Assembly: GCA_018829205.1 (NCBI GenBank) | Contig: JAHJUE010000019.1 | Location: forward strand, 124,001 to 188,000 | Length of the DNA: 64,000 nucleotides | Origin: Bacteroidota bacterium | GTDB taxonomy: Bacteria > Bacteroidota > Ignavibacteria > Ignavibacteriales > Melioribacteraceae | Direction: 5' to 3' | Shown here: positions 379 to 32,687 of the stretch, piece after piece | Position numbering within the stretch: the first letter of the stretch is position 1 | How the letters are laid out: the number at the start of each line of letters is the position of its first letter | Position numbers and translations under genes: made by a program | Notes under the pieces: generated by a model | What the model was told of the DNA's origin: nothing | The model's input: the letters and a program-made list of their open reading frames with translations, nothing else | The model's database searches: none

Positions 379-393
379 TAATAGGATGATGAA

Positions 394-1113: not shown

Positions 1114-1114
1114 A

Positions 1115-1870: not shown

Positions 1871-1876
1871 TTATTT

Positions 1877-3606: not shown

Positions 3607-3620
3607 TAAGGACTTTGAAT

Positions 3621-4442: not shown

Positions 4443-4456
4443 AGGAGATAACACAA

Positions 4457-5293: not shown

Positions 5294-5325
5294 AAATAAT
5301 TTTAAATGAAAGAGAGCAGAAAAAT

Positions 5326-7567: not shown

Positions 7568-7570
7568 AAG

Positions 7571-8593: not shown

Positions 8594-9608
8594 GAAATCT
8601 AAAATTATATTACTTCTTATTGGTATATCCGTATTCACTTATCTCGTGATGGATTTCGGCATAGATAATATTCTTACTAATTTACGAAAAACCGGATGGT
8701 ACTTTATTCCTGTAATTGGTGTATGGGGGTTTGTTTATCTATTTAATACATTTGCTTGGCGTTCGATTATCCATAATAGCAGTAAGATATCATTTGGTAA
8801 ACTTCTTTCAATTACAATTAGCGGATTTGCACTAAATTACATTACACCTTCAGTTGCCGTAGGAGGTGAACCTTACCGTATTGCAGAATTACAAAAACCG
8901 TTAGGCATGAGCAAAGCCGTATCTTCTACCTTTCTTTATACTATGATTCATTTTCTTTCATCATTTGTTTTCTGGATACTAATAATTTTACTAGCACTTA
9001 TATCTTTATCACTTACTTCTAGCTTGAGAATATTATTGATTGTTGCCCTCTTAGCTTTTCTAATTATTGTATACTTTTTTATAAATAGACATAAAAACGG
9101 CATCTTAGAATCATCACTTAACATTGCAATCAAAATTCCATTCATAAAAAAGATTGCAATAAAGTATTCTGATAAAACTGAGAAAATAAAACAAGTTGAC
9201 CACCAGATTAAAGAACTTTACTTAAACCGTAAATATGATTTTTTTTCTGCCCTTTTACTTGAGGTTGTAGCTAGAATCATTGCCTCGCTAGAGAATCTCT
9301 TTATTCTAAAAGCTATTGGGATTGATATAACCTTTTCCGAGGCGTTGTATATAAACGCTGTTTCATCTTTTGTAATAAATTTGTTTTTCTTTATGCCGCT
9401 GGAACTAGGATCCCGCGAAGGAGGACTTGTCTTGGTTCTAAAGGCTATTAAAATAAGTTCGCCACTTGGTATCTATATTGGACTGGTAAATAGAGTTAGA
9501 GAATTATTCTGGATTTTTGTAGGACTTGTTTTGATAGCATCAAGTGGAAAAACAATAGGAAAAAACTTAACAGAAAGTGTTGACTATGAAAAAAGTACTT
9601 TTGTTTGA
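8586..9608 (+). CDS. UPF0104 / lysylphosphatidylglycerol synthase-type membrane protein
   Basis: 340 aa with about eight hydrophobic helices. It carries the family motif FALNYITPSVAVGGEPYR (about residues 80-97) and the C-terminal ELGSREGGLVLVLKA stretch. This domain forms the flippase half of MprF and also occurs alone, where it is proposed to move lipids or lipid-linked intermediates across the membrane. In this operon it could flip the lipid made by the CDP-alcohol phosphatidyltransferase. It overlaps both neighbouring genes, supporting co-translation. Confidence 0.85.
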   Translation: MSKKSKIILLLIGISVFTYLVMDFGIDNILTNLRKTGWYFIPVIGVWGFVYLFNTFAWRSIIHNSSKISFGKLLSITISGFALNYITPSVAVGGEPYRIAELQKPLGMSKAVSSTFLYTMIHFLSSFVFWILIILLALISLSLTSSLRILLIVALLAFLIIVYFFINRHKNGILESSLNIAIKIPFIKKIAIKYSDKTEKIKQVDHQIKELYLNRKYDFFSALLLEVVARIIASLENLFILKAIGIDITFSEALYINAVSSFVINLFFFMPLELGSREGGLVLVLKAIKISSPLGIYIGLVNRVRELFWIFVGLVLIASSGKTIGKNLTESVDYEKSTFV

Positions 9609-10287
9609 TTTTGGAGGTACACTTGATACAAATGGTGTCCATTGGGGTGAAAAATACTGGGAAGCCTATAAAAAATTAGGACTCTCGATATCCAAGAAAC
9701 AATATGAAGAAGCATATGTTTATTCGGAAAGTTATATGGCAGGTGTTGTAAAACCTACAGATACTTTTAAAACTACACTAATCTATCAAATTCTATTTCA
9801 ATTACTTTACTTGAGAAACAAAAAGTACCTGCTTCCCGAGGAAGATAGTGATCTTCTTTACAAAATGTCGGATCTATGTTATGGAGATGTTCTTTTAGCT
9901 ACAGAAAAGAGTTCACAACTTATCAAAAAGCTAAATAGCAGTTTTGTATTAGGATTAGTATCCAACTTCTATGGAAATTTATCTACTGTACTAAACGAAT
10001 TGTCTTTTACAAATTATTTTGAAACGGTCATAGACTCCTCGGAAGTTGGAATAAGAAAACCAGATCCTAAAATATTTCAAATAGCCGTAGATAGACTTGG
10101 CGTATTGCCGGAAGAAGTTATTGTTATAGGGGATTCATACAGTAGAGATATTGTTCCTTCCAAAACAATTGGCTGCAGCACTATTTGGCTTGACGGCAAA
10201 AGTTGGACGAGACCAAGTGAAACTTCAAAAGCTGATTTTGTTATTCATTCAATAGAAGAAGTTAGTGACACCGTACTTGAAACGTGA
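9586..10287 (+). CDS. HAD-superfamily hydrolase
   Basis: About 233 aa starting at the ATG at 9586, inside the end of the upstream gene. Haloacid dehalogenase motifs are present: motif I FDFGGTLD (residues 6-13), motif II VSNFYG, motif III Lys in IRKPDPKIF and motif IV VIGDSYSRDI. In motif I the position two after the nucleophilic Asp is Gly instead of the usual Asp that acts as general acid/base; this occurs in some HAD subfamilies. The probable substrate is a phosphorylated small molecule; dephosphorylation of an inositol phosphate or phosphatidylinositol phosphate made in the operon is the contextual guess. Confidence 0.83.
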   Translation: MKKVLLFDFGGTLDTNGVHWGEKYWEAYKKLGLSISKKQYEEAYVYSESYMAGVVKPTDTFKTTLIYQILFQLLYLRNKKYLLPEEDSDLLYKMSDLCYGDVLLATEKSSQLIKKLNSSFVLGLVSNFYGNLSTVLNELSFTNYFETVIDSSEVGIRKPDPKIFQIAVDRLGVLPEEVIVIGDSYSRDIVPSKTIGCSTIWLDGKSWTRPSETSKADFVIHSIEEVSDTVLET

Positions 10288-10395
10288 AAGCAAAACACAG
10301 ATAAAAAATACACTGAGGAAAGCCGAATTAAAAATAGTATATAATTTTCAATTATTAATACAAAAAACAATGCAACACATAAATATGGAGAGACT

Positions 10396-11706
10396 ATGAA
10401 GAAAGTAACAGTTAAAAATCCAGAAGGTAAACTCGGAGTACTAATTGTAGGTCTAGGCGGAGCAGTATCAACCACATTTATAGCAGGTTTGCATAACATC
10501 CTGAAAGGATACGGAAAGCCTTTTGGTTCACTAACCCAAATGGCAACAATTAGGATTGGAGAGCGGACTGAAAATAATTTCCCTTTCATAAAAGATTATG
10601 TGTCGCTTTCAAAACCTGAAGATATAGTTATTGGCGGTTGGGAAATAAGAAACAATAATTGTTATGAAGCTGCAAAAGAAGCCAAGGTGCTTGAATCAAT
10701 AGACCTTGATTCAATTGTACGCGAAATGGAAAGAATAGAGCCTATGTCTGCTGTGTTCGACAAATATTATGTGAAACGTTTGGATGGAGATTTTGTTAAG
10801 AGAGGTAAAAATAAAAAAGAGTTGGCAGAGCAATTAAGAGACGATATTAAGAAATTCAAAGAGCTTAATAACCTGGAAAGGGTTGTAGTGATATGGTGTG
10901 CAAGTACAGAGATATTTATTTCTGAAAATGAGGTACATAAAAGTCTTGCAAATTTTGAAAAAGGAATGTTGGAAAATAATGAAGACATATCACCAAGTAT
11001 GTTGTATGCATACGCTGCCTTATCCGAAGGTGTTCCGTTTATAAACGGTGCTCCAAACTTATCGGTTGAAATACCAGCGCTTCTTGAGCTTGCAGAGAAA
11101 ACTTCTGTACCTGTTGCAGGCAAAGATTTCAAAACCGGACAAACATTAATAAAAACCGTTATTGCACCAATGCTTAAAGCGAGAATGCTGGGGTTGGAAG
11201 GATGGTTTTCAACAAATCTTCTTGGTAACAAAGACGGCGTTGTATTGGATGAACCAGGTTCATTTAAAACAAAAGAAGAAAGTAAATTATCCGTACTAAA
11301 TACAATTTTGCAACCTGAACTTTATCCGGATCTATATAAAGATTTTTACCACAAGGTCAGAATAAACTATTACCCGCCGCGAGGAGATAATAAAGAGGGA
11401 TGGGATAATATTGATATATTCGGCTGGCTTGGTTACCCGATGCAGCTTAAAGTTAATTTCTTGTGTAAAGATTCTATCCTTGCCGCGCCATTAGTATTAG
11501 ACCTCATCTTGTTTATGGATTTAGCTCAAAGAGCGGGAATGAAAGGAATTCAAGAGTGGCTTTCATTCTATTTCAAAAGTCCAAATCACTCTCCAAACAT
11601 TATACCGGAACATGATCTGTTTATTCAGCAGATGAAATTAAAAAATACTCTTAGAACTATAATGAATGAAGAACCCATTACTCATATTGATACAGACTTA
11701 GAATAG
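10396..11706 (+). CDS. ino1: myo-inositol-1-phosphate synthase
   Basis: 436 aa. The N-terminal NAD-binding motif VGLGGAVSTTFIAGL and the central active-site block (INGAPNLSVEIPALLELA followed by GKDFKTGQTLIKT, about residues 215-258) identify inositol-3-phosphate synthase, which cyclises glucose 6-phosphate to 1L-myo-inositol 1-phosphate. Its size agrees with the Bacteroidota-type enzymes. A 108-bp gap upstream contains a TATAAT-like box at 10340-10345, so it may have its own promoter within the cluster. It supplies the precursor that gives the whole cluster its inositol interpretation. A relic of a second copy lies about 1.2 kb downstream. Confidence 0.93.
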   Translation: MKKVTVKNPEGKLGVLIVGLGGAVSTTFIAGLHNILKGYGKPFGSLTQMATIRIGERTENNFPFIKDYVSLSKPEDIVIGGWEIRNNNCYEAAKEAKVLESIDLDSIVREMERIEPMSAVFDKYYVKRLDGDFVKRGKNKKELAEQLRDDIKKFKELNNLERVVVIWCASTEIFISENEVHKSLANFEKGMLENNEDISPSMLYAYAALSEGVPFINGAPNLSVEIPALLELAEKTSVPVAGKDFKTGQTLIKTVIAPMLKARMLGLEGWFSTNLLGNKDGVVLDEPGSFKTKEESKLSVLNTILQPELYPDLYKDFYHKVRINYYPPRGDNKEGWDNIDIFGWLGYPMQLKVNFLCKDSILAAPLVLDLILFMDLAQRAGMKGIQEWLSFYFKSPNHSPNIIPEHDLFIQQMKLKNTLRTIMNEEPITHIDTDLE

Positions 11707-15290: not shown

Positions 15291-15336
15291 GCCTAAAAGC
15301 TGGGAATTGACAGCAGGATTGCAGAAATCCCACTGT

Positions 15337-15379
15337 CTGTCACGCAGGAGGTCGCGAGTTCGAGTCTCGTCGGCCCCGC
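15337..15379 (+). other. tRNA-Asp (GTC) 3' half: integration (att) site
   Basis: These 43 bases read CTGTCAC (anticodon loop with GTC), the 3' anticodon strand GCAGG, variable loop, a complete T-arm (CGCGAGTTCGAGTCTCG) and the 3' acceptor strand plus discriminator (GGCCCCG). The 5' half is absent: upstream bases do not pair with the anticodon stem and no D-arm exists. Three-prime tRNA fragments are left when an element integrates into a tRNA gene, marking the end distal to the reconstituted gene. By orientation, the element should lie on the left with integrase 1, but no intact tRNA-Asp is found in the window. Confidence 0.75.
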
Positions 15380-15383
15380 TCTT

Positions 15384-15420
15384 AAAGCCTTGTAAGACAA
15401 TAACTTGCAAGGCTTTTTTA
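15384..15420 (+). terminator. Rho-independent terminator after the tRNA-Asp fragment
   Basis: AAAGCCTTGTAAG (15384-15396) pairs with CTTGCAAGGCTTT (15404-15416) with one G-U pair and a 7-base loop, followed by a T run. It is the expected tRNA terminator, so sequence from 15380 rightwards is probably the natural 3' flank of the tRNA gene. Confidence 0.8.
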
Positions 15421-15564
15421 TTTTAAACAAAATTGCTGCAGTAGAAATTGCAGTAGAACTTTTCTTTTACCTTCAATACTTCTGTTTTTAGAATTTATTA
15501 ATTCCCGTTTCAGATGAATAAAATGTATGTTATTTTTATATAATACATAATTGATAGGTTTTTG

Positions 15565-16833: not shown

Positions 16834-17877
16834 TTAATTCTCCTTTTTGATTAGTTTAATTTTGTTTAGTTCGTGTGCTTGTTTGTTTACACTTAGTTTA
16901 TTGTAATACTTTGCTGTCGTAGAAATATTATGATGTCCTACAAGTTTTGAGACAGTCGCTAAGTCCATACCGCTCGCATGCGCTGCCGTAATAAATGTCT
17001 TTCTAAACGTTCGAAGAGTATATCCTTTGCCGGTTAATTCTATATCATCAAGGTATCGCCGGAATGCTCTTCCTATACTATCTATTCTGTCATAATTCAG
17101 TAACTTCCCTTCCTTAATTTCGGAGCACCTCTTTTCAAGGATTGGAATTAAATCATCATGAAAAGGAACAATGAAGTGTTCATCAGTCTTTTGCGAATAG
17201 TAATGCATAAGCTTGTTCTTGAAGTCTAAGTCCTTCACTGTAACATTATAAATATCGCTTGGTCTAAGTCCGGTATAGAACATTAACGACATTGTTGTTA
17301 TGAAATTGCTATTCTTATCTTTCATTCCGTCAAAGAATTTAATTAAGTCCTCATTGCTGAAGGTTATTATTGACTTTATCTCTGGTTTAATTAGCACATC
17401 ACGATTTATTTTAAATACCGATGTGTAGTTATATTCAAACAGGAAGCCCAGAAATTTCTTAAGCACCTTCGATAAACAATGAATCGTATTCCTTTGATAT
17501 GGGAGCTTTCTAATTTCAGTTAGCCATTCCTCAGTCCTTAACTTAGTAATTATCGTACACGGTAAATCCGGCGGGAATTCCTTTTTGAACCTATCATAAA
17601 ACCAATCATACTCGTATAGTGTCCTTGAGTGTTTGTCTGCGTTCACACGTTTGAAATGGTCAAACGCAGTTTGGATAGTGACTCTTTCAATACCTAATGT
17701 TTTCAATTCCTCACCTTTTTTATCAAGCTCGTCTTGTAATTGAACAGCCATTTGCTTGGCTATCTTAAGGTTATGTTTGTTGAAGGTAAGTCCAGTACTT
17801 CTATCTTTACTTTTTCCAAGTGATTGATCATAATACGAGATATAGATTCGATTATTTTTCTTATAAACCGATGCCAT
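16834..17877 (-). CDS. Tyrosine recombinase / integrase 2
   Basis: 347 aa. An N-terminal arm-binding segment, a SAM-like domain (about residues 60-150) and the catalytic domain are present. Catalytic residues seen: Arg in MFYTGLRPSDIYN, Arg in RTFRKTF, His in LVGHHNISTTA and Tyr in KYYNKL. In the usual His-x-x-Arg box the first residue is Arg (RTFR), a known substitution in some phage integrases but worth noting. It starts inside the preceding excisionase-like gene (17 bp overlap), indicating translational coupling. It is not closely related to integrase 1. Confidence 0.9.
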   Translation of the reverse strand: MASVYKKNNRIYISYYDQSLGKSKDRSTGLTFNKHNLKIAKQMAVQLQDELDKKGEELKTLGIERVTIQTAFDHFKRVNADKHSRTLYEYDWFYDRFKKEFPPDLPCTIITKLRTEEWLTEIRKLPYQRNTIHCLSKVLKKFLGFLFEYNYTSVFKINRDVLIKPEIKSIITFSNEDLIKFFDGMKDKNSNFITTMSLMFYTGLRPSDIYNVTVKDLDFKNKLMHYYSQKTDEHFIVPFHDDLIPILEKRCSEIKEGKLLNYDRIDSIGRAFRRYLDDIELTGKGYTLRTFRKTFITAAHASGMDLATVSKLVGHHNISTTAKYYNKLSVNKQAHELNKIKLIKKEN

Positions 17878-18205
17878 TAGCTACCTCTTGTTTTAGTTTA
17901 TTGAATATTAAATCGGAATTAAATTTCCCTCTTATTTTATGCGACTCTTTATTTGAGGGTAAAATTTGCTTAAGTCTAAAACGGGGGTCTCGATTCAATT
18001 CTTCCTCTATTTCAGGAAGTGGTCGAGTATTTTCGTCAAGGAAGCGTGTTAGTTCTTTAACGGAGATTTTAATTTTTCCGTTTATATAAGTAACTCTTAA
18101 TGCCCCTTGCTCAATCAACTTGGCAAAAGTGGTCTTTCCTATGCCAAGTTTTTCTGCGGCTGCTGATCGTGACAGCAACCGGAAGTTATTGTCATGTTCT
18201 TTCAT
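17861..18205 (-). CDS. Excisionase-like helix-turn-helix protein
   Basis: 114 aa. Residues 10-60 form a winged-helix pattern of the MerR/excisionase type: LLSRSAAAEKLGIGKTTFAKLI, then GALRVTYINGKIKISVKELTRFL with the typical basic wing. The C-terminal 45 residues are charged and helical. Direct overlap with the integrase supports a role in controlling the direction of recombination or in repressing the module. Confidence 0.8.
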   Translation of the reverse strand: MKEHDNNFRLLSRSAAAEKLGIGKTTFAKLIEQGALRVTYINGKIKISVKELTRFLDENTRPLPEIEEELNRDPRFRLKQILPSNKESHKIRGKFNSDLIFNKLKQEVANGIGL

Positions 18206-18666: not shown

Positions 18667-20808
18667 CTAAGCTGCTTTCGAATGACCGCCCGAAACTTTT
18701 ACTTGTGACAAGAACTCAGAGTAGTATGCCTCATATTTTCGTAGCAACATTTGCTCATCTCCAGGTTCTGTTTCAATAGTCCGAAGCGTTATTTCTGGGA
18801 AACATACTAAACTAACTTCATAATAGTTATGAGAACTGCCGTCGATTTGTCTTTTCTTTCTTTTTAGTTCTAATACTTTTTGAAGAGATTTTCTACTTCC
18901 AAAAACAGATTTAAACCCATTTTCTCTACAAAACAATTTTAACTGGTTATTGAACGAATCGACATTCTCTATTTCAAAATTTAATCGCTCAAGTTTGTTA
19001 TAAATATAAAGTAGTTCCTTCTTTATGTTATCAAGCCTTGTATCAAAACCAGATGTCTCAATTATATATCTCGCGGATAAAATGATGTATAGAAGTCCCC
19101 CGTAGATTACTCTATCCATGAATAAAGAAAATTCCTTCTCTTGTAGTTTGAGAATTGATTTTACAGCTCTATCGCTGAAATTAAGATCCTCCAAGAATTT
19201 CAATCGCTTCTTAAACAATTTCACGGAAAGATCATTAAACTCAGCTGTGAAAAAATCATAAGCTTCTTTGTCAATTTCATCTTCTTTACCCATATTAAGT
19301 ATCCCTCTTGTATATGAATCACCGTATGATAAAGCGAGTTTTATATACCTATTATACTCAGGATCAAATAACATATCAGCCATTAATTTCATGTCCTCCA
19401 TAATGTCATTATTTATTTTCCTTTGTAAGTTTGTGATAGATTCGTTGACTATTAACTCATTTCTTTCAATAACAATATTTTCTTCAGACCAACCTTCCAA
19501 ATCTATCAACAGCTCTCTTCTAATTGTTGGATCATTGGAAGTAGAATCGTGGAATTCCTCAAATACCATTCTTATTATCTCTGATTCATACAGAACCGGA
19601 TCATTCCAATTGTTGAAGTATAATCCCGGCATTTTACACTCCGTCATTAAATAATCCAATGTATATGGATTGTTTCGTTTTATTTGTTTCGCAAAATCTA
19701 ATATTGACGTTATCGAAAGACGTTTTTTCCCATGACAATCAATAATGTTCGGTATAGTGCCTTTAACTGTTCCGCTTACAAAATCATAGATATATCCTAC
19801 TTGTTTCCTTGGTCTTTTGATTATTTGCCTAAGCAAGGTCAAATCCATTGTATCAAACAAATAGAAGTTTTCTATATCATCATTGTTAATATTTACCCCA
19901 TCGGAAATCACTGATGTGGTTAGAAAATATCGTATGTCGGGATGAATCATTTCATGTTCAACCAAGTACCTAAAGTATCCGCTCTTTTTAGAACCAGAAT
20001 GAGCAACAAATATATGTTCCGTTGGCACTCCAGCTTCTATCAAAAATTCTTTCACTAACAACAAGTGTTTTAGATTATTTATAAAGACTATGTTCTTACC
20101 GTTTGTCTCATTATCCATCATATGTCTTAGCATTTTACGCATACCTGCTTTTTGATATGGAATGATTTTATAATTGTACTTTGCTGCCGGAGAATTCACA
20201 ATGTCTCCAAATTTCAAAATCTTAGCCCCTCTTATTAGTGGATGCAAATACAATACTTCAGGTGTTCCCGTTAGAAATATTACCTTTCTGAATTTCGGGA
20301 GGCTTTCTTCCAAGAACCTAAGTGACTTACTTCTAAAGCCTGAGCTTGTAACTAAATGATGAGCTTCATCGACAATTAGTATTTTGTTTCCAGCTTCACT
20401 GTTGTCTATTATAATCTTCAGCTTATCGAATACTGCCGTACATTGCGATGAGTATTCTTCGATATACTCACCTAATGTCATCCCCAAACGATTTGCTTCC
20501 TCCTTGCTTATACCCGGAATTTCAATATTCTGTGCTGTTTGTTCGGCTAAGGCTATTAGCGGAGAGACAGAAACATATTCCAAACCCATTTCCTTGGCAA
20601 TACCTATAAGATTTGAAGTTTTTCCACTACCGGTCGGCGCCACAATAAGATTATACTTATTATCATCAGTTAATAATTGTCGTATCCGATCAGAATTTCT
20701 ACAAGTATGATCCTCACTTGTTATGTATTTTCCTACCAGTCCAAGGACTTCTTTTGGTACATTCAATTGTTCCGATAACTTTAATTTTTCGAGTACTTTT
20801 GATTTCAT
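18667..20808 (-). CDS. SF2 helicase-like ATPase A
   Basis: 713 aa. Superfamily 2 motifs are seen: motif I APTGSGKTSN (about residue 58), motif II VDEAHH (DEAH type, about 146), motif III FLTGTPE, motif IV region IVFINNLKHLL, motif V TTSVISDGVNINN and motif VI QIIKRPRKQ. In motif VI the usual Gly of Q-x-x-G-R-x-x-R is Lys. The C-terminal 350 residues are helical, without a family I recognise. It is paralogous to the next large gene. Context with integrase and excisionase suggests replication or processing of the mobile element. Confidence 0.8.
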   Translation of the reverse strand: MKSKVLEKLKLSEQLNVPKEVLGLVGKYITSEDHTCRNSDRIRQLLTDDNKYNLIVAPTGSGKTSNLIGIAKEMGLEYVSVSPLIALAEQTAQNIEIPGISKEEANRLGMTLGEYIEEYSSQCTAVFDKLKIIIDNSEAGNKILIVDEAHHLVTSSGFRSKSLRFLEESLPKFRKVIFLTGTPEVLYLHPLIRGAKILKFGDIVNSPAAKYNYKIIPYQKAGMRKMLRHMMDNETNGKNIVFINNLKHLLLVKEFLIEAGVPTEHIFVAHSGSKKSGYFRYLVEHEMIHPDIRYFLTTSVISDGVNINNDDIENFYLFDTMDLTLLRQIIKRPRKQVGYIYDFVSGTVKGTIPNIIDCHGKKRLSITSILDFAKQIKRNNPYTLDYLMTECKMPGLYFNNWNDPVLYESEIIRMVFEEFHDSTSNDPTIRRELLIDLEGWSEENIVIERNELIVNESITNLQRKINNDIMEDMKLMADMLFDPEYNRYIKLALSYGDSYTRGILNMGKEDEIDKEAYDFFTAEFNDLSVKLFKKRLKFLEDLNFSDRAVKSILKLQEKEFSLFMDRVIYGGLLYIILSARYIIETSGFDTRLDNIKKELLYIYNKLERLNFEIENVDSFNNQLKLFCRENGFKSVFGSRKSLQKVLELKRKKRQIDGSSHNYYEVSLVCFPEITLRTIETEPGDEQMLLRKYEAYYSEFLSQVKVSGGHSKAA

Positions 20809-21360
20809 TTTAGTTCCTTATTTTATTTTGATTATGAATTGAGTTATATAAAATTAGTTTCATTAATGAGAGTATGTCTCCTTTTCAGAATTTAAATCCC
20901 TTTAAATAATGGCAAAGCTATTATCCAGGAAGACAATTTCTAATTAGTCTTATTCATCTATTTTGTTTCACAAAACAATTTGAGTTTTCTAATGAAGTTG
21001 GGACTATTTGGGATTGTTTGGGAGAATTTCTACAAATGATGTAATTATTCGTAATGTCTAACTATTTTCACCTGTCTTCACGAAGTGAAAAGCGAAGCTA
21101 TTTCTGCTTTATCTTCATCTGTCATTCCGAAGGAATTTAATGCGAAGTTAAATGTCATTCCATAAATTTATTATAATATTTATATAAAATATATTTTTTC
21201 ATCTTCCTTTCATCTGTCTGCTATTATTTTAGGAACAAAATAATAGTACGTAGTATTAATATAAACCCATATGCGTAAAATGAGAGATAAAACATCTAAG
21301 ATTTGAGTCTATTTTTCTGGGGAAATCATGTTTATACTTTATATTCCTTAATTCCAAAAT
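20809..21360. other. Intergenic region between the two helicase genes
   Basis: About 550 bp without a credible gene. It includes a TTCAC-gaa-GTGAA hairpin near 21078-21090 and a GTCATTCCGAAGGAATTT segment followed by a second GTCATTCC (about 21121-21168), which resembles dispersed intergenic repeats. The right half (21170-21360) is very AT-rich. The promoter of the helicase at 20808 must lie here, but no consensus is obvious. Confidence 0.5.
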
Positions 21361-23565
21361 CTAATTTGTTTTAATTAACAGATTATCCAAACATCTATGT
21401 AACAATTCTTTGAGCATTAAATTGTAACGAAATTTATCCATCTCAGTGATGGAATAGAGATTATCAAATATTTTAGGGGCTCCAATTGGTTTTACGTAAT
21501 AATCCTCTCCCTTTTCACCTGTAATCCTGTTCTTACTCCCTTTTCGATATTGAATTTTCCCGGAATCAAATAATGAATTAATTATCTCATAAGCTTCATC
21601 TAATTTCCAGTTTTGTTTATCGTACTTCATACAAATGTTATGAAATTCTTCATTTAATATTTTAGTTTCTATATAATCTACATTTTTCAAATAGTCATTC
21701 AAATCCCATATAATGTTAAACTTTGGGTACAACTGGCTGCGTAAAAGTAGTTTGCCTTCTTCTTCATCTATAACTTTCAAATCCCTTATCATCATATTTT
21801 TAAATGCAATGGTCTCATTTTTCAAATCAATATTAGGTTTATCAAGTTTCAAATTGTAAAGGTATTTTAAGTATCCAGTCGGGTATCCTTTTGTAGAAAG
21901 CTTCATTAAATAATTAAGAAGGCTTTCAATAAAATTACCGGATTTAAGTAATTGATAGTATTGAGATTTAAAACTGTTAGGCTCCTCGCTATTAGTAATT
22001 ATATCTCTATCAAAAGTTTTAGAAGCATAAAGACTTGGTTCTGTAAAATAGATATGTGTATTAAGCATGCTAAAAAAATTATTCACTAATTCTTTATCAG
22101 CAATTGAATTTACCTGTTGATAAGATTTTGAATTGTATAAATCATCTCTAAATTCATCAGAATAATTAACTACAGTGACATCGTTGAATCCAGCTATATA
22201 TCTATAATATTCAATAGCCCTGTTTGAGTCCAGTGCCATAATCCTATTAAGCTTCTCAATAATATTTATAAATACCATTAGTTTATTTACTTTAAATTCA
22301 CCGTTGCTCCACTTTTCAAGATTATTTTCTTTGTCTAACCTTATGATTTGGTCTGATTCTGAGGGGAGAATATTTCCAAATCCCATTTTATTAATAGTGT
22401 TCTTTGCTTCAGCAATTTTCTCTGCGCATTCAACTAATTCCTTGCGGGCTTTACTTGGAAGGAACCATTTTTGAGTATATTCGTATTTATAACTTAAGAA
22501 ATCGTATATTTTGTTAACGCCTAACCTAAACCTCCCGATAAATTGTCTTTTTAACCACCAATCATCAACGTCAAGCATATATAATGAGTCAATATCCTCA
22601 TTCAATATATTCATTCCTTCTGCTATTACACTTGTCGTGACTAAATATTTAACGTAGTCAGGTATCCGTTTTGATTTAGCAATTTCTAAGAATAAATCTC
22701 CCTGTTTATAATCGCTTGACAATTTATAAACACCTTGACCATCTGAGCACTCTGGCAAATACTTTTGAAGTGTAAGTGCAAACTTCTTAACAAGCTTTCT
22801 ATTATTAATAAGAATAATAACTTTACCATTCGGTTTTTTGCAAACTATGTGATGCAGCAGTTTTTTGATTCCGCCATCTTGATACTTAACAATAGATATC
22901 GTTGCTTTTTTGTAAGATTCTTTTTTTCTCCTTGCCAAAAACAAATATTTCTTAAAATCTAACTCGTCATCCATTGCTCCCTCAGGAGTTCCTGATAAGA
23001 AAATGTATTTTCTAAACTTAGGTAAATGCTTTATTATTCCTTCAATTGCCATTGTTCTATATTTATAACTTGTAACAATGTTGTGAGCTTCATCGACAAT
23101 AATATTAAACTGTTTAGAATCAAAATTAGAATTTTGACAAAAATGATGCAGATTATCATACACTGATAAATAAACAAAGGTATCATCAGATGATATCATC
23201 TTCTTAATATCGGAATTGCGCTGAATTTTTTGCTTTCTCGTTGCATCTTCTCCAAGGCTCCTTATAACACCTACTGAAATTTTATGCTGTTTACAATACT
23301 CCTCAAACTCAATTACGTTAGCATTTAATGGGAGTATGATACAGCTCTTGGTTTTAAACTTATTTGCTAATTGAATTGCGTTAGTTGTTTTTCCGTACCC
23401 TACTCTTGCAGCAATAAAGTAATTCTTTTCATCACTAAAAAGATTATATATTTTCCGGGCCGAATTGAAGTTCGATAGTAAGTTTTTAGGTGCGGATACA
23501 AACCTGTGATCATAATTAATATTTAAGAAGAACTTGATTTGCTTCGAAATATTACTTTGCAACAT
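21361..23565 (-). CDS. SF2 helicase-like ATPase B, diverged paralogue
   Basis: 734 aa. It repeats the architecture of the other helicase: motif I ARVGYGKTTN (about residue 56), motif II VDEAHN, HLPKFRKYIFLSGTPEG (compare SLPKFRKVIFLTGTPEV), motif IV region VIILINNRKL, motif V TTSVIAEGMNILNED and motif VI RQFIGRFRLG with the canonical Gly-Arg. The unusual Gly-Tyr-Gly in motif I still fits a P-loop. The long C-terminal region differs from copy A and ends in a helix-rich segment. No restriction methyltransferase or nuclease partner is adjacent, so a type III restriction role is unlikely. Confidence 0.8.
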   Translation of the reverse strand: MLQSNISKQIKFFLNINYDHRFVSAPKNLLSNFNSARKIYNLFSDEKNYFIAARVGYGKTTNAIQLANKFKTKSCIILPLNANVIEFEEYCKQHKISVGVIRSLGEDATRKQKIQRNSDIKKMISSDDTFVYLSVYDNLHHFCQNSNFDSKQFNIIVDEAHNIVTSYKYRTMAIEGIIKHLPKFRKYIFLSGTPEGAMDDELDFKKYLFLARRKKESYKKATISIVKYQDGGIKKLLHHIVCKKPNGKVIILINNRKLVKKFALTLQKYLPECSDGQGVYKLSSDYKQGDLFLEIAKSKRIPDYVKYLVTTSVIAEGMNILNEDIDSLYMLDVDDWWLKRQFIGRFRLGVNKIYDFLSYKYEYTQKWFLPSKARKELVECAEKIAEAKNTINKMGFGNILPSESDQIIRLDKENNLEKWSNGEFKVNKLMVFINIIEKLNRIMALDSNRAIEYYRYIAGFNDVTVVNYSDEFRDDLYNSKSYQQVNSIADKELVNNFFSMLNTHIYFTEPSLYASKTFDRDIITNSEEPNSFKSQYYQLLKSGNFIESLLNYLMKLSTKGYPTGYLKYLYNLKLDKPNIDLKNETIAFKNMMIRDLKVIDEEEGKLLLRSQLYPKFNIIWDLNDYLKNVDYIETKILNEEFHNICMKYDKQNWKLDEAYEIINSLFDSGKIQYRKGSKNRITGEKGEDYYVKPIGAPKIFDNLYSITEMDKFRYNLMLKELLHRCLDNLLIKTN

Positions 23566-23663: not shown

Positions 23664-23843
23664 CTAAGCATTTCCTTTTGCTATTATATGCATTTCAATC
23701 CGGCACGGACCATCAAACCTGTTTGCTATCTCAATCAATTCTCCGGACACGTACTCCCATATTTTCTTAACTTCACTCTGCGGAATAGGCTTATAATCAT
23801 AGGGCTTATTTACATTAAGAACGATCTTCTTATTGATTGTCAT
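23664..23843 (-). CDS. Small hypothetical protein
   Basis: 59 aa, not overlapping any larger gene. It starts at 23843 inside the last codons of the upstream zinc-ribbon gene (14-bp overlap) and ends with TAG at 23664. The sequence is soluble, with a helical stretch SEVKKIWEYVSGELIEIANRF split here by eye at residues 23-43, and one Cys. The start-stop overlap argues that it is a translated member of the same operon. Family not recognised. Confidence 0.55.
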   Translation of the reverse strand: MTINKKIVLNVNKPYDYKPIPQSEVKKIWEYVSGELIEIANRFDGPCRIEMHIIAKGNA

Positions 23844-24027
23844 AAATCAAGTCCCCATCATTTATTCTCTGTCTGCAGACTTCACATTTACAATCTTGTC
23901 CGTATATATAGGTCGTAAGTGAATAACAATAAGGACACGTTATTTCATCACTTTCAATTGATATATTCTCAGCGACAAAGCCTTGAATATGCTTATGCTG
24001 TTTTAAAATCTTTCTTGTAGTTTTCAC
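23830..24027 (-). CDS. Small zinc-ribbon protein
   Basis: 65 aa. Two CxxC knuckles (CPYC and CEVC, with an additional CKC between) fit a zinc-binding ribbon in the C-terminal half. The N-terminus is basic (KTTRKILKQHKH). Such small zinc ribbons are frequent in mobile elements and may bind DNA or RNA. It precedes and overlaps the 59-aa gene. Confidence 0.6.
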   Translation of the reverse strand: MKTTRKILKQHKHIQGFVAENISIESDEITCPYCYSLTTYIYGQDCKCEVCRQRINDGDLIYDNQ

Positions 24028-24085: not shown

Positions 24086-24537
24086 TTAAATCAATCGGCT
24101 TTCGATTAATGATGTGTATTTACCTTCAGCAAAGATGATATGATCAAATACAGTCACGTCGATTATCTTTCCGGCTTCGACTAACTTCTTTGTGATGTTA
24201 ATGTCTTCTCGCGAGGGCTCCGGATTTCCGGACGGATGATTATGTGCGATAATTATATTAGCGCAAGTGGCTACGATTGCGCCTCTGAAAACTTCTCGTG
24301 GATGAACAATACTGCTATTAAGATTACCTTCTGAGATTATCTCAAACCCAGTTACTATGTTTGCACTGCTTAACCAGAATACTACAAATCTTTCCCTTAC
24401 TTCTCCGTCAAACAAAAACGGAAGTTATCAAATACATCTGAAGGTGAGGTAATCTTGATACGCTTGTTCTTAAGCTGCGGATAGGCTTCTGTACTGTCTT
24501 TAAACTTCCAAGTGATTGTTTTGATGTAATGTTTCAT
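24086..24537 (-). pseudogene. RadC-like JAB-domain gene with a one-base frameshift
   Basis: The C-terminal part (open frame 24086-24415) has the JAB/MPN metal motif: a Glu-containing N-terminal strand, then AHNHPSGNPEPSREDI with the His-x-His and distal acid of RadC-like proteins. The N-terminal part starts at ATG 24537 (MKHYIKTITWKFK) and reads DVFDNFRF before running out of frame. Joining the two needs one extra base in a run of five T (on the coding strand, near 24416); the whole would then be 150 aa, the normal size of the short RadC-like proteins found on mobile elements. It is either a recent mutation or a homopolymer sequencing error. Confidence 0.8.
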
Positions 24538-25791: not shown

Positions 25792-26628
25792 TTATGCGGC
25801 ATTAGATTTACTGTTTGTATGTGGTGTGATAATGTAGTTAACCGCTCTCTGAGCTTCGACGGCGGCTTTCATAAATACGTCTTCATCTAACTCTGCTAAT
25901 TTAAGCCAGCCTTGTATATACGCTGCTTGGTTGTCGAGAGTCTTTGGAGCTATCCCGGTCAATGCGCAAAGATATGCACTTCCGATTTCGGCGATTAATT
26001 CCTCGAAGCTGTAAAGTTCTTCATCAGAAACGGAACTCTTTCTATTCAGTCTTGAAGTATGTCCACTCCAATGAATTAGTTCGTGCATAAGTGTTGAGTA
26101 ATACTCCGCTTCTGAATTAAAAGAGTGAACCGGCGGTAAGGATATATAATCCTCAACCGGAGAATAATAAGCCCGAAGTGTATTGTGCCTAATATCGGGG
26201 CGCAACTCCATACCTTTGATAACTTCCTCACATTGAATAATTTTCCGTTCTTCGTCATTATCATAAAACAATGAAGTTTGCGCGAGATTAAATACAATGC
26301 TCCTCTTTATAAAAGGTACACGTTTTACCTCTTCATCACTATTTGAAGGGACTTCCTTCAAATCCCAATATATAACCCAGCTTCCTTTCTCTCCCTTCTT
26401 AACATATCCGTCTCGTTCCTTGCATTGAAGAAAAGTAACGTAATACGGACTCGGATAATCGTTCATACAAAGGTTTATAAAGTTTATTCCGTTGTATGTA
26501 TGTTTGCTTTGCAGATTTGTAGGCAATCCAACTTCCCAAGATTTTCGCCATGGGATTGTGCCTTGAGAAAGTTTCTCTTTGAGTTGCTCCGTTATTTGAG
26601 CATAGATTTCTTTTTTTAGTGAACTCAT
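25792..26628 (-). CDS. ardC: ArdC-type antirestriction / zincin-like protein
   Basis: 278 aa. The N-terminal half shows the ArdC ssDNA-binding domain pattern (QGTIPWRKSW, NGINFINL, GEKGSWVIYW). The C-terminal half has the zincin motif HELIHWSGH (HExxH, about residue 187) with the downstream SFEELIAEIGSAYL motif that supplies the third ligand. ArdC proteins are carried by conjugative and integrative elements and protect incoming ssDNA from restriction. The length matches the usual 270-320 aa. It is followed by an operon of small genes on the same strand. Confidence 0.9.
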   Translation of the reverse strand: MSSLKKEIYAQITEQLKEKLSQGTIPWRKSWEVGLPTNLQSKHTYNGINFINLCMNDYPSPYYVTFLQCKERDGYVKKGEKGSWVIYWDLKEVPSNSDEEVKRVPFIKRSIVFNLAQTSLFYDNDEERKIIQCEEVIKGMELRPDIRHNTLRAYYSPVEDYISLPPVHSFNSEAEYYSTLMHELIHWSGHTSRLNRKSSVSDEELYSFEELIAEIGSAYLCALTGIAPKTLDNQAAYIQGWLKLAELDEDVFMKAAVEAQRAVNYIITPHTNSKSNAA

Positions 26629-26636
26629 GATGCCTC

Positions 26637-27095
26637 CTACTTACTTCTGGCGATAAAGAGAGTAATTGCTATCTTGTTCACATCGACAAGCCCGTTTAAC
26701 TTACCTTGTATCTTTAAAGCATCACGGTAGCTTTGCAGAATCACTTCATAGTAACGGTCAGTGTATTTGTCCTCGTTTGTATCATTTATATATTCGGGTT
26801 CAGCCGCCGCTGATACTGAGACTTTGTTATTTACTTGCACATCAAATGTTGTTACTATTTTATTCCCGCGTTGCGAAGCTAACTTTGTAATAACGGCTTT
26901 ATCTCCCCGGCGTAAAGTCTTCAATTGAAAGTGGACTTGTTCATTCGGAAAGAATGACCATTCCTTTCCATCTGATTTAACTGCGTATAAATAATAATCT
27001 CCGTATTGACTGTTTCCAGAAACACATTCGTCATAAAGCAACTCTATCTCCGTTGGCTTATTTAACTCAAGTTCAAGTTTAGTTCGTTGAGTCAT
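26637..27095 (-). CDS. Hypothetical protein, possible OB-fold ssDNA-binding protein
   Basis: 152 aa. The first 95 residues are beta-rich with aromatic residues (YGDYYLYAVKSDGKEWSFFP), consistent with an OB fold. The C-terminal 50 form helices ending DVNKIAITLFIARSK. Position between the Gam-like and ArdC-type genes, with a 17-bp overlap with the former, suggests a DNA-processing role. The family assignment is a guess from pattern only. Confidence 0.5.
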   Translation of the reverse strand: MTQRTKLELELNKPTEIELLYDECVSGNSQYGDYYLYAVKSDGKEWSFFPNEQVHFQLKTLRRGDKAVITKLASQRGNKIVTTFDVQVNNKVSVSAAAEPEYINDTNEDKYTDRYYEVILQSYRDALKIQGKLNGLVDVNKIAITLFIARSK

Positions 27096-27597
27096 TATTA
27101 ACCTCCTTTATTTTAAGTGAGAACTCTTCTGTACCTTCGATAACCTCCACACCTTTCGGCACTTTACCGGACATTTTCATAGCAGTTTTGATACCGTTAA
27201 GATTTGGTTTTACCGATTCCGGCACTACAGTCAGCATCATTTGAGTAGCCGACTTTAGAAATTCATCCATGTCTGTTATCTCAACTTTATCTGCTTTCTT
27301 CCTAATTTTAAGTGTGCCGTGCGGAAGGTTTATTGTCTTCTGATTCTGTGACCGAATAAACGCTTCGAGTTTCTTCTGCAGAAATTCAATCTTCTCTTGA
27401 TGTTTTACATTACGGTTTAAAGCCCAGTCATTTATAATCTCTATTTCAGACTCGGCTTCTTTAATTGTACGTGCTATTAAATTGTACAAATCAGAAATTT
27501 CTTTAATAATTAAATCAAAGTGAGCGAACGACAGCTCTGTTTCTTTCTGCTCTGCTTCAAGCAGAAGCTCGTTTATAAAATCATGTCCTTCTTGCAT
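27079..27597 (-). CDS. gam: Mu Gam-like host-nuclease inhibitor
   Basis: 172 aa. An N-terminal long coiled-coil (about residues 25-100) is followed by PHGTLKIRKKADKVEITD and a C-terminal beta-rich region, the layout of Mu Gam (PF07352). Gam binds double-strand DNA ends and protects them from RecBCD-type exonuclease, and is orthologous to Ku. Its presence indicates that the element passes through a linear or broken DNA stage. It overlaps the following gene by 17 bp. Confidence 0.85.
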   Translation of the reverse strand: MQEGHDFINELLLEAEQKETELSFAHFDLIIKEISDLYNLIARTIKEAESEIEIINDWALNRNVKHQEKIEFLQKKLEAFIRSQNQKTINLPHGTLKIRKKADKVEITDMDEFLKSATQMMLTVVPESVKPNLNGIKTAMKMSGKVPKGVEVIEGTEEFSLKIKEVNNDSTN

Positions 27598-28187: not shown

Positions 28188-30662
28188 TTAGTATTGTAGA
28201 TAAACCACGAGACTATTTTTGAGAGGTCTGTTGTTGCTGCGACTTACTGCTTGAACAACTGAATGAATTTTGTAAACACCCTCCGAAATGCGGCACTCTT
28301 CACCAACGTTTAGAATACTTCCCTTAATGAGAGCTTTGTTTGATTCAATCAATATTTCAGAAGCGCATTCATATTTGACACTTGATATTGAATCGCTCGA
28401 CCATATGCGAATGTTCTTTGTAGTTATCCTTTCGACTTTCTTTTCTCTTATTCTATTAAGGCTGCCATTGTTTTTTATATGGCATCCCAATTCTAAGTTT
28501 GCAAGCATTTGAATTGTATCATTAGCTGTTCCTCTTAAACCGTCAATATCCCTAATCCATAATATACTGTCATGTGGTGCTCTGTTAGTTTTATATATCT
28601 GGTAGGCAAAAACTTTCGCGAGCAGACTTCTTTCATCTATCGAATATCTACTAAGCTTCGACAAAAAAGCTTTCTGTATTTTGTCTATCCCTTCCTTGCG
28701 TATTATCTCTTTTTCAAATGCGGGTAGCTGGTCTGTTTTATCAAGCAGTATAGCTATGTTCTTATTATAGTAACCCAACAGTGATACACCAATCTCAAAA
28801 AGAGGATTGTCGAGATTTGATTTGCCTATCTCAATAAGCGGGATATCCAGATTATCAATTTTTCCTTTTACTCTGTTTCCTTTGCTTACAGAACCACTGC
28901 CTAAAATTTCTTTGTCGGCTTCATCTATAAAGTATTTGACCGCCTCCAATAATTCATCAAGCGGATGTTTATCAGCTAAACATACTCTATCTTGAACCTT
29001 TTGTGGAAATCTATAGAGCAATGATTTTGGCAATGGGATATTATTTTCGATTATAAACTCATACATATCTGAGACCGCCTTCATATCGTCATCTGCCGCA
29101 ATGCCGTCTTTAACTGTAGCGTCAATAATCCTTTCAAGATCCCAATAAAAATTATGTCTGATTTTATGGAAATAATCTTTTTGTGTTATTCTTATAGCCG
29201 ATCTTGCCATCTCTCCGTTTGCCGCGTAACCTATATTTGTTGAATTATCTTTTATAGTATTATAAGCACGAATAAGATTAGCTAAAGTATAATCCAGAAT
29301 AGATTTATTTGTGGGAATGTATTTCATTCTTTTCTTAAGCCATTCACTAAACAGTTTATTATCCCATAGAGCCCTTTGAAATTCTATGCGATCAATGACT
29401 GAGTTCTTACTTGGAAAACTGCCGGTGATTGTATGGCCGACTTCAACCTTAACACCGTTATAGATTATTTTAGTATGGATAAGTTCGCCGTATTGGTTTG
29501 GGTTACGATAGATAATTGCTTTGTTATCTTCAACCGGTATAATCCCAACGCTGTCATCAAAGTCAGCGCCTCCGAGTGTTAAAAGTGTATTATACGCGTC
29601 TTTAGGATTTATCCATAGATTACCGAAATTGTCAAGCTCAACTTTATATCGTTTAACCGTTGTAATGAAATTGCCATCTTTATTATGATTTCGTAAATCG
29701 ACTCTTAAGTATGCTCGCTTTCCATCCGGTACTGGAATTCTAAAGACCGGTTCGCCTTTACTATTTTCTGCGTACGTAAGTATAGAACTTCTGAACATTG
29801 TCCATGCCGCTCTCACAAGTCCGGGATATCTTCTGTAATCAACCCTGCTCCAGATTGCTTTTCTTAACGTCCAATTCTCGCTCTCAAACTTTTCATTATC
29901 TATCTCATCAAAGTTATCCAGCCAATTAACGAGTTTGCCTTTAAACAAATCTTCCTTGAATTTTTCGATCCCGTCGAATGCCCATTGAAGATACTGCTCA
30001 CCTTCGAATACTTCCCATAAATTGAGGAGTGATTGTATGTCGAGGCGTAAGGAATTACCTAACTTTACCGGCTCAAAGGCGATATAATTTAATCCGTTAA
30101 TTAGCGTGATCTCTTTCTTAATATTATCATCACCGTATATAACAACATCATGCTCTATCTTATCTGAAACAACGCAATGACCTTTTACTAATCCGTCTTT
30201 GTAGAATAACGTAAACTGAGCTGACATCTCTGGATGCGCTTCTTTCCATCCAAGTCTGTGAGCGAGTCGTAACGATATTAGCGATATACCGTCTGTCTCT
30301 TTTCCGTTATGACTTTGATTCATGTGGATATCCAAGTTATCAATGAACCCACCATACTTACTCGGTCTGAATACACGGCTTAGATATTTACCGGTCTTAA
30401 ACAGATTACTGCTATTGATTTGAATTCCAAACCTACCAAGGAAATCATTTGATTTAATAAGCACACCTTGAGAGTCGTAAACATCAATCGTTCTGAGTTT
30501 ATCTTCTCTCAAATACGCAAAGCTGAATTTACCTTCTAACAGTGTTCTTTCAATATCTGCCTCGCTGAAGAAGAGTGACTGGAATTCCACTTTTGAAATG
30601 TTATGGATTGCGGAATTGAAAAAGTGATACTCATACGAGTTGTTTGCTGTTTGGTTTTTCAT
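28188..30662 (-). CDS. Large protein of unknown family, possible double-psi-barrel RNA polymerase
   Basis: 824 aa, soluble, no signal or membrane segment. I do not recognise it with certainty. Two stretches recall the two-barrel RNA polymerases (bacterial beta', YonO, eukaryotic RdRP): FRIPVPDGKRAYL (about residue 310) followed 60 residues later by LGGADFDDSVGIIPV (about 373), compare the catalytic DFDGD in R-x-P...NADFDGDQMAVHVP; and further on TNIGYAANG (about 490), compare the I-G-x-x-x-N segment of the RdRP class. The third Asp of DxDxD is shifted or absent (DFDDS). It is the largest gene of the mobile region and has its own terminator upstream and downstream. Alternative: a structural or scaffold protein with an accidental match. 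Confidence 0.6.
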   Translation of the reverse strand: MKNQTANNSYEYHFFNSAIHNISKVEFQSLFFSEADIERTLLEGKFSFAYLREDKLRTIDVYDSQGVLIKSNDFLGRFGIQINSSNLFKTGKYLSRVFRPSKYGGFIDNLDIHMNQSHNGKETDGISLISLRLAHRLGWKEAHPEMSAQFTLFYKDGLVKGHCVVSDKIEHDVVIYGDDNIKKEITLINGLNYIAFEPVKLGNSLRLDIQSLLNLWEVFEGEQYLQWAFDGIEKFKEDLFKGKLVNWLDNFDEIDNEKFESENWTLRKAIWSRVDYRRYPGLVRAAWTMFRSSILTYAENSKGEPVFRIPVPDGKRAYLRVDLRNHNKDGNFITTVKRYKVELDNFGNLWINPKDAYNTLLTLGGADFDDSVGIIPVEDNKAIIYRNPNQYGELIHTKIIYNGVKVEVGHTITGSFPSKNSVIDRIEFQRALWDNKLFSEWLKKRMKYIPTNKSILDYTLANLIRAYNTIKDNSTNIGYAANGEMARSAIRITQKDYFHKIRHNFYWDLERIIDATVKDGIAADDDMKAVSDMYEFIIENNIPLPKSLLYRFPQKVQDRVCLADKHPLDELLEAVKYFIDEADKEILGSGSVSKGNRVKGKIDNLDIPLIEIGKSNLDNPLFEIGVSLLGYYNKNIAILLDKTDQLPAFEKEIIRKEGIDKIQKAFLSKLSRYSIDERSLLAKVFAYQIYKTNRAPHDSILWIRDIDGLRGTANDTIQMLANLELGCHIKNNGSLNRIREKKVERITTKNIRIWSSDSISSVKYECASEILIESNKALIKGSILNVGEECRISEGVYKIHSVVQAVSRSNNRPLKNSLVVYLQY

Positions 30663-30722
30663 GGTTGTTTCTCCATTATGTTAATTTAGTGAATTGTTTT
30701 TTTTATTCTATTAGCTTTAAAA

Positions 30723-30917
30723 CAAAAAAGCCCCTCACCGGATTAACCAATGAGAGGCTGTAAAGATTTGTTATGTATTTTTAGACCCCCGGTACCTCGC
30801 ATCGAAAAGCAAAAAGGTACCATGTCACTACTTTACTTATACCAGGTCAGATGTCCGCACAATAACAACCCCCGGGGGCTGTTTATTGATTTGGGGTTTT
30901 GGGAATAATTCGAGCTG
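30723..30917 (-). ncRNA. Candidate structured noncoding RNA or transcription attenuator
   Basis: On the - strand a promoter-like pair is followed by about 195 bases without a convincing gene and a strong terminator. Inside are a GC-rich palindrome (AGCCCCCGGGGGTT, complement at about 30868-30881), a GGTACCT/AGGTACC inverted repeat (about 30790-30820) and a GGGGGT that could pair with the 5' CCCCC. The GC content of these blocks stands out from the AT-rich region. Either it is a free small RNA of the element, or the terminator acts as an attenuator for the 824-aa gene that starts 60 bases further on. Confidence 0.45.
30729..30759 (-). terminator. Strong - strand terminator upstream of the 824-aa gene
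   Basis: AGCCTCTCA and TGAGGGGCT pair across a 13-base loop and are followed by TTTTTTG on the - strand. It lies 65 bp before the start codon of the large gene, so it must end or attenuate a transcript coming from the right. Confidence 0.8.
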
Positions 30918-30922
30918 AATAA

Positions 30923-30952
30923 ATTTTACAATAAAAATTTGCTAATGGACAA
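30923..30952 (-). promoter_or_regulatory. Promoter-like -35/-10 pair for the RNA candidate
   Basis: Reading the - strand, TTGTCC (complement of 30947-30952) and TAAAAT (complement of 30923-30928) are separated by 18 bases. The predicted start is near 30916. Confidence 0.4.
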
Positions 30953-31151: not shown

Positions 31152-32687
31152 TTATTTAACCAAAATCATTTTTCTACTAAGAAGTACATTATTACCTGAA
31201 AGTTGATAAATATAAATTCCTGAAGTTAATTTGCCAGCATCCCAGTTTACTTTATAGTTACCCGGTGCATATACTCTATTTGTTAAAGTTGCAACTTCCT
31301 GTCCAATAATATTAAATACTTTTACTGAATAGTTACCTTGAGTTTTAATACTAAATTCAATGTTGGTGCTCGGGTTAAAAGGGTTCGGGTAATTTTGATT
31401 CAGCGCAAAATTGTCTGGTATTATTTGCTGTTGATCAGTTATCGAAGTTACAGATTGATTATCAAATAATATTATATAGCTGCTCACTTCTTCATTAGAA
31501 AATGATATTGTATTACTTTCTGTGTTTATTGTTGCGTTTTGGATTTCGACCCAATTTTCTCCCTGGTTATCCCAATATTTTACGGCAATATTATTTTCAT
31601 CAACACCTGAAAACTCTAATTGTATATCAGTATAATGTAACATGAAATCAACATTTGAACCAAGACTCATATGGTTACCCATTCTACCGTTATCCCACAT
31701 TCCGTTACTACCGTTAGGAAAGTACATATTAACTTCATAACCGGCTAATACTTTGTGGTTATCCAAATTCGGAATGTTATTAGGATAAACTTCAAAAAAT
31801 TGACAGAAAAGAGAATCAGGCAAAGAACCTCCGCCATGCCCGTGCATACCTCCGTTCTTCCAACCTGAATGGAAAGTCAGTCTATCCATATTATCGAAAG
31901 GTGAATGAAAACTAATTGTATCATTTGTGTTATGCATCCATCCCCCACCGAAATGACTCCCTAAAGTTGAAGAATCTCTCCACTCAAGTCCATTTATTTC
32001 ATAAACTATTAACATTGGAGTAGCTTCATCATTTTCCAATAAACCGCCAATAATTGTAATACTTTCTCCGCTTGAAGGTCTTGTTGCTCCTGATTCCGGT
32101 TCATACCAATAGGGACCAAAGTTAAGAAAATAATCAGGCAGATTATCAGCATCAATATCAAGATAATAATGCCCAAAATAAAATGTAGTGTCAATAATAA
32201 CAGTTCCACTTAACTCAGTTGTCTTTAATGTATCATGGTCCCAGCCGAATCCATAACCTTGACCGCCATCGTGGTGATTCCCCATATTATGACTATGCCG
32301 CCCCATATTATTCCATTCGGCATAATAAGGATCTCTCCAAAATTCTCCATTAATTTCGTAAACAACTATAGTACTTTCATTCATTCCACCGTCAGCGTGA
32401 AGACCGCCGGTAATAGTAATCTGATCTCCGTTTAACGGTCTTGTTGCGTTTGAACTATCGGGTGTGTACCAAAAAGGACCGAAACTTAAATGATAATCCG
32501 CGTTTGTATCGCCGTCAACATCCAAATAGTAAATTGGATGAACTGAATTTTCATCAATAATAGCAGTGCCTGTAACCGTTACTGATTCTAAAGAATCCGG
32601 GTTCAAATAACCATGCCCTCCGAAATGTTGTCCGTATAAATTTGAAACTATAAACAGACCTAATATTGTAAATATTTGCTTAATCAT
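31152..32687 (-). CDS. Secreted T9SS-sorted protein with two internal repeats
   Basis: 511 aa. A signal peptide (residues 1-19, ending NLYGQ) is followed by two about 95-residue repeats, each with YYLDxDxDxxxDYxLxFGPxWY, a RP-x-G/S-x-x-ITIxGG block and VYEINGxxWRD. A His/Met/Gly-rich linker follows each repeat (HNMGNHHDGG, NGGMHGHGGG). The last 90 residues are a T9SS sorting domain beginning NQNYPNPFNPSTNIEFSI and ending SRKMILVK. The His-rich linkers and the operon with a Met-rich protein suggest metal binding outside the cell. It is the last gene of a three-gene operon starting at 34018. Confidence 0.85.
   Translation of the reverse strand: MIKQIFTILGLFIVSNLYGQHFGGHGYLNPDSLESVTVTGTAIIDENSVHPIYYLDVDGDTNADYHLSFGPFWYTPDSSNATRPLNGDQITITGGLHADGGMNESTIVVYEINGEFWRDPYYAEWNNMGRHSHNMGNHHDGGQGYGFGWDHDTLKTTELSGTVIIDTTFYFGHYYLDIDADNLPDYFLNFGPYWYEPESGATRPSSGESITIIGGLLENDEATPMLIVYEINGLEWRDSSTLGSHFGGGWMHNTNDTISFHSPFDNMDRLTFHSGWKNGGMHGHGGGSLPDSLFCQFFEVYPNNIPNLDNHKVLAGYEVNMYFPNGSNGMWDNGRMGNHMSLGSNVDFMLHYTDIQLEFSGVDENNIAVKYWDNQGENWVEIQNATINTESNTISFSNEEVSSYIILFDNQSVTSITDQQQIIPDNFALNQNYPNPFNPSTNIEFSIKTQGNYSVKVFNIIGQEVATLTNRVYAPGNYKVNWDAGKLTSGIYIYQLSGNNVLLSRKMILVK

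Follow-up and report, generated by a model that had tools for sequence, protein, structure and literature searches.

The 64-kb stretch of DNA analysed here (the window) lies on contig C12 of a 4.6-Mb genome (G000) whose named near relatives are Ignavibacteria. Its minus strand carries the genes of a mobile element, beginning with that of an 824-aa protein and ending with an integrase gene (Table 1), and directly before the first of these genes is a short leader that combines GC-rich sequence blocks with an intrinsic terminator. Upstream of the leader is a host-type secreted-protein gene that runs in the same direction (31152-32687), and the terminator is placed between host DNA and the first operon of the element, the arrangement of a Tn916-type insulator. 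One of the two helicase-like proteins (18667-20808) is weakly similar to the plasmid replication protein CyRepA1, and the element may replicate after excision. Neither a relaxase or transfer gene nor an RHH gene was recognised in the window element. A small Zn-ribbon-like ORF at 23833-23949 (minus strand) resembles a leader-adjacent one in genome G009 (46% over 39 aa, E 3e-10).

Table 1. Coordinates in the window of the leader, its parts and the element genes that follow it.
Feature	Position	Strand	Basis
s0, upstream GC-rich block CAGCCCCCGGGGGTT, in which the GAGnnnCCGGGGGTCT block recurs in part	30867..30881	-	sequence
Conserved leader core, ~80 nt	30773..30856	-	sequence-only models R1/R2; 18 related leaders, 14 genomes
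s1, ACCTGGTA (family ACCnGGTA)	30840..30847	-	alignment A4, coordinates
s2, ATGGTACCTTTT (family ATGGGACCCTTTT)	30812..30823	-	alignment A4, coordinates
s3, CGATGCGAGGTACCGGGGGTCTAAAA; CGAG invariant in the family	30779..30804	-	alignment A4, coordinates
Intrinsic terminator, 13-bp stem (30759-30729) and T-rich tail	30719..30759	-	covariation over 11 leaders
RBS and start codon (GGAGAAACAACCATG) of the 824-aa gene	30660..30674	-	sequence
First gene behind the leader, for the 824-aa protein (two-barrel RNA polymerase by predicted fold)	28188..30662	-	structure models, fold searches; no family match
Mu-Gam-like DNA-end protection protein	27079..27597	-	Pfam PF07352, PHROG 2205
152-aa protein (p152), conserved in the element family	26637..27095	-	tblastn in related elements
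ArdC-type antirestriction protein	25792..26628	-	Pfam ArdcN and MPTase-PolyVal; PHROG 7245
RadC/JAB-domain protein	24086..24415	-	Pfam PF04002
Two DEAD-box helicase-like proteins (18667-20808 and 21361-23565)	18667..23565	-	
AlpA-like HTH protein and tyrosine integrase, distal element end	16834..18205	-	

The GC-rich inverted repeats and the strong terminator that a first-pass annotation had described on this strand are present, with GGTACCT/AGGTACC located inside 30792-30821 and the terminator tail ending 57 nt before the start codon of the large gene, close to the 60 bp originally given. The blocks do stand out by composition, as the only run of at least 11 G/C in the window (0.7 expected) is located at the leader. 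The promoter-like pair TTGTCC-18-TAAAAT (30952-30923) is a different matter, with 3 matches against 3.2 expected by chance, and upstream of related leaders there was no clear enrichment of the consensus host promoter, so that the proposed transcript length of 195 nt must be regarded as a guess. The minus strand folds better than its shuffled versions (z -2.4; opposite strand -0.6), but much of this excess is due to the terminator, the core of ~84 nt alone being near chance (z -0.84). The s0 region gave a weak model match at 30868-30880.

Searching with patterns and two sequence-only models (R1/R2) uncovered 18 related leaders, spread over 14 genomes of the same class, with per-genome E-values down to 1e-17; a DNA search of relatives had returned one true relative (L005) among chance matches, and a second was reached via homologues of the 824-aa gene. 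Each contains a conserved block of ~80 nt, written as ACCnGGTA … ATGGGACCCTTTT … GATGCGAGnnnCCGGGGGTCT. The weakest members (G361, G046, G461 and G382) are assigned on the basis of partial matches and position. As a phylum-wide draw of 395 genomes gave matches only in already known close relatives, the family looks narrow. Rfam held no match to the leader at the gathering threshold, and at relaxed thresholds only sub-threshold matches, none of them convincing. The leader is thus real, conserved and undescribed in Rfam. Several further matches were discarded: those of 23-24 letters in rpoB (L002, L006, L008) and another gene (L004) correspond to 30902-30925, outside the block, and are a coincidence with coding sequence, and most pattern matches in other phyla (L027-L034, L037-L039), together with one viral contig (L026), occur without the rest of the block.

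The order of parts from 5' to 3' is an optional s0 (GAGnnnCCGGGGGTCT-like), s1 (ACCnGGTA), s2 (ATGGGACCCTTTT), s3 (GATGCGAGnnnCCGGGGGTCTnAAAA), terminator, RBS and start codon, with about 22-28 nt between s1 and s2, about 20 nt between s2 and s3, and 25-80 nt between s3 and the terminator. Fuller copies of s0 than the partial one in the window are found in G057, G388a, G382 and G388b. The genes that follow the leaders belong to one mobile-element family (824-aa protein, RHH, Gam, p152, ArdC, RadC, helicase, AlpA, integrase), with the RHH gene present in most operons. The first gene is a member of the 824-aa family in eight leaders, while in G360 an internally deleted remnant of this gene (MPFKTKQPNQSAQFTMFYKDGIE*; L035 1311-1380, plus strand) comes directly after leader and terminator. 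In G172 a small membrane protein is encoded first, followed by RHH, Zn-ribbon, Gam, p152 and ArdC, and in G009 the leader is followed by RHH, Zn-ribbon, helicase, AlpA and integrase. The window's own genome has a second copy (G000:C3:216163-216246, locus L081) before a RadC gene. Within about 1-10800 of that locus (G000:C3:206001-226000), near a tRNA-Thr gene, genes resembling by eye those of a SIR2-like protein and of a HerA-like ATPase, possibly with a role in defence, accompany RadC and the leader.

Leader and large gene do not always occur together. Relatives of the 824-aa gene without the conserved block were seen at L012 and L013, and the leader occurs in genomes devoid of any 824-aa homologue, including G172, a single contig that is 99% complete. 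In G038, G022, G388b and G046 the terminator or the operon is missing, and the leaders without a recognisable operon, from five genomes, are probably the remains of lost elements. G052 has two near-identical leaders with terminators (L083, L084) and no element genes nearby, perhaps likewise remains of lost elements or else stand-alone units. In two elements a tRNA gene, oriented like the leader, lies a few hundred bases away from it.

An attachment-site reading of the leader was rejected, as tRNA distance and orientation vary and the opposite end of the window element has no second copy. Elsewhere in the window (15336-15460, plus strand) an inverted repeat (CCTTGTAA...TTGCAAGG) and a set of short repeats come after a 3' fragment of a tRNA-Asp gene, much as in related elements (L090, L094), whose edges have such repeats behind an intact tRNA gene; this may be an attachment-site remnant, hinting at two tandem elements.

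An intrinsic terminator, consisting of a GC-rich hairpin and a T-tract between leader and RBS, follows the block in 12 of the 18 leaders, and in nearly all of those that still have an operon. Its helix is kept though the sequences differ: among 11 terminators, 82.8% of cells are paired (66.4% in shuffles) and 19 cells show double changes (9.0 in shuffles), values which none of 500 shuffles reached. Such terminators are otherwise rare in this position: of 142 long ORFs in these loci, just 7 start within 150 nt downstream of a strong terminator on the same strand, and four of these seven belong to the 824-aa family. Both results speak for a terminator kept by selection and not by chance. Apart from this helix, the sequence downstream of the block varies freely.

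The 824-aa protein, which has homologues in about a dozen genomes of the class, matched nothing in Pfam, NCBIfam, PHROGs or the PDB sequences, and no relative was found in phage collections, plasmid collections or IMG/VR. AlphaFold models of the whole protein and of its core are of moderate confidence (mean pLDDT about 71) and contain two double-psi beta-barrels in one chain. Their top 17-18 structural matches are all two-barrel RNA polymerases (Z to 10.8 for the whole protein, 8.7 for the core), including plant RDR2, QDE-1, and the phage proteins P32 gp64, P74 gp62 and P23-45 gp96, and Foldseek returned QDE-1 (E 2e-4) and an uncultured phage protein (5e-22). Two motifs are common to nine homologues, GLVKG (GLIKG in one) and an invariant GGxDxDD; compared with the metal-binding triad DxDxD, two aspartates fit and the third is shifted by one. 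On these predicted models the protein looks like a two-barrel (QDE-1/RDR/YonO-like) RNA polymerase, a kind known from phages and fungi.

The interpretation that we favour, and hold to be modestly probable, is that of a cis-acting, terminator-gated leader of the element's first operon, in which the block is the site where termination is overridden. Transcripts would enter from upstream host genes or from a promoter at the element edge, cross the block of ~80 nt and meet the intrinsic terminator just before the RBS, so that the operon (RNA polymerase-like protein, Gam, ArdC, RadC, helicases) would stay off for as long as the element remains integrated. The stop would then be overridden at the block, most likely by an antitermination factor or a modified polymerase that recognises the block by sequence. 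In support of such a leader are the conserved block, the covarying terminator, the fixed order of block, terminator, RBS and gene, and the occurrence in one element family; that the terminator acts in vivo, that the operon is silent when integrated, and that the block controls read-through is what we infer from this arrangement. Spacing adds a further argument. In the leaders scored, 11-54 nt separate the terminator tail from the RBS, so that a promoter for the operon could hardly be accommodated in between, and the operon must be transcribed through the terminator unless a promoter overlaps the hairpin. Read-through from outside is to be expected in the two elements where the leader is near and co-directional with a tRNA gene. 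It tells against this reading that a few leaders are without terminator or operon (G038, G022, G388b, G046), that the block is missing at two relatives of the 824-aa gene (L012, L013), and that the core does not covary.

The block could in principle act through its own folding, as in a classical attenuator or riboswitch where ligand-dependent alternative folds of the block form or disrupt the terminator. In several members s1, s2 and s3 are able to pair with one another, and the sense strand folds slightly better than the antisense (mean z -0.78 vs +0.32). Against this, segments of the same leader pair no better than segments taken from different leaders (p 0.88, 0.32 and 0.14; p 0.22 in a further test), the helices s1:s3, s2:s3 and s1:s2 and a hairpin around s2 show no covariation and have pair counts equal to shuffles, and RNAalifold found no consensus pair in the block; these tests covered nested helices, and pseudoknots as single helices. 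A conserved, covarying structure such as an aptamer part should have was not found, nor was a match to a described family. Block and terminator likewise showed no conserved pairing with each other, so that an alternative fold is no obvious means of the override. We rate the attenuator or riboswitch explanation as quite unlikely. The structured RNA of the first-pass annotation is hence borne out for the terminator, with its covarying helix, and not for the GC-rich blocks, where the letters are conserved without covarying pairs, an outcome that corresponds in part to what it had named as a refutation. Letters that are conserved while no helix is supported speak against a riboswitch-like fold and favour a block that is recognised by its sequence, be it as RNA or as DNA. 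If as double-stranded DNA, the block would be a repressor operator (e.g. of an RHH protein) or a promoter for the element's polymerase, with the terminator merely insulating against host read-through. The conservation of sequence in the absence of conserved pairing fits this, as do the form of s1 and s2, which in most members are each a short palindrome, the upstream repeat of the s3 block in several, and the RHH gene in most operons; plasmid p576 sets an RHH repressor on its establishment genes (PMC8708921). It speaks against this that the spacing among the three sub-blocks is variable, that no consensus host promoter is near the block, that the RHH gene was not found in the window element, and that the leader occurs where the 824-aa gene does not, so that a DNA site appears possible but rather doubtful.

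A related idea is that the block serves the predicted two-barrel polymerase of the element as promoter or as loading or antitermination site, the enzyme being blind to the terminator that stops the host polymerase, which would amount to a private, insulated circuit. The protein gp64 of phage P23-45, which has a related fold, transcribes from GC-rich promoters (PMC10770324), and for YonO the promoter has been left open (PMC5467207), so that the block could be the promoter of the 824-aa enzyme. This is kept as a lesser and unlikely case because the leader is found also in genomes without the enzyme. A free sRNA of ~195 nt, with its own promoter and terminator and unrelated to the adjacent gene, was the other option of the first-pass annotation, and a GC-rich, terminator-ended unit in intergenic space would suit it. 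However, the unit stays before element operons with the RBS a short distance past the terminator tail, almost no room is left after the terminator for a promoter of the gene itself, the promoter match is at chance level, and what follows the block is conserved in the terminator helix only, which makes an sRNA very unlikely. Least probable of all is a promoter of the Frpo/ssi type, active in single-stranded DNA and serving early expression while the element is transferred. Such promoters are usually found as inverted repeats ahead of antirestriction genes (PMC11541004), but the element has no recognised relaxase or transfer gene, and a terminator comes directly after the repeats. No hairpin that would pair -35 with -10 elements was noticed, in a region where the promoter scan is at chance level. 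A leader peptide translated from GATGCGAG was dismissed, since its ATG is replaced by TTG, TTC or TCC in other members and the frame lengths differ. The best reading therefore remains the terminator-controlled leader, which the first-pass annotation had offered beside the sRNA.

A leader of this kind offers a testable handle on how integrated elements of a little-studied class silence their antirestriction and replication genes while keeping them available for use. It also links leader control to a new family of predicted, phage-like RNA polymerases outside phages. Should the block indeed answer to the element polymerase, a mobile element would be carrying its own insulated transcription system.

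Several known systems invite comparison. The PyrG leader (RF02371) likewise has a G-run followed by an intrinsic terminator, but the weak Rfam match to it (32 bits, gathering score 65) is mainly to the terminator, conservation here does not extend to the pyrimidine run in the terminator arm, and PyrG-type slippage was rejected as the G run is absent in G461 and G052. The STAXI and radC RNA motifs (PMC2864571) are also candidate RNAs associated with antirestriction, integrase or radC genes; they are known from Enterobacteriales and Proteobacteria, and neither was among the Rfam matches up to E = 10. EGeRS2/Reg of p576 similarly involves control of ardC-type establishment genes and an element-encoded RHH protein, but has a strong sigma-A promoter with TTATCCC dual motifs, neither of which is seen at the leader (PMC8708921).

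Closest in logic are two insulators. In the integrated Tn916, a terminator at the element's edge shields its genes from host read-through (T1), and a cis-acting antiterminator, probably an RNA (canT), lets element transcription pass (PMC11658703). The present leader has a terminator near the element end and, as we propose, a cis sequence that passes wanted transcription; canT is about 400-450 nt long, from Gram-positive bacteria and experimentally tested, whereas the leader is ~80 nt, is located directly before the terminator, and its antitermination is inferred. In plasmids of the pLS20 family, ardC and other establishment operons are protected from read-through by sequences with GC-rich inverted repeats (EGeRS1) that lie just ahead of the RBS (PMC8708921). 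Position, ardC-type setting and occurrence at several operons are alike, but EGeRS1 is 420-750 bp in length with a stable predicted structure and belongs to Bacillus plasmids, while the leader is much shorter and has a plain intrinsic terminator. By analogy, the leader described here appears to share the logic and the gene setting of the Tn916 and pLS20 insulators, at a much smaller size.
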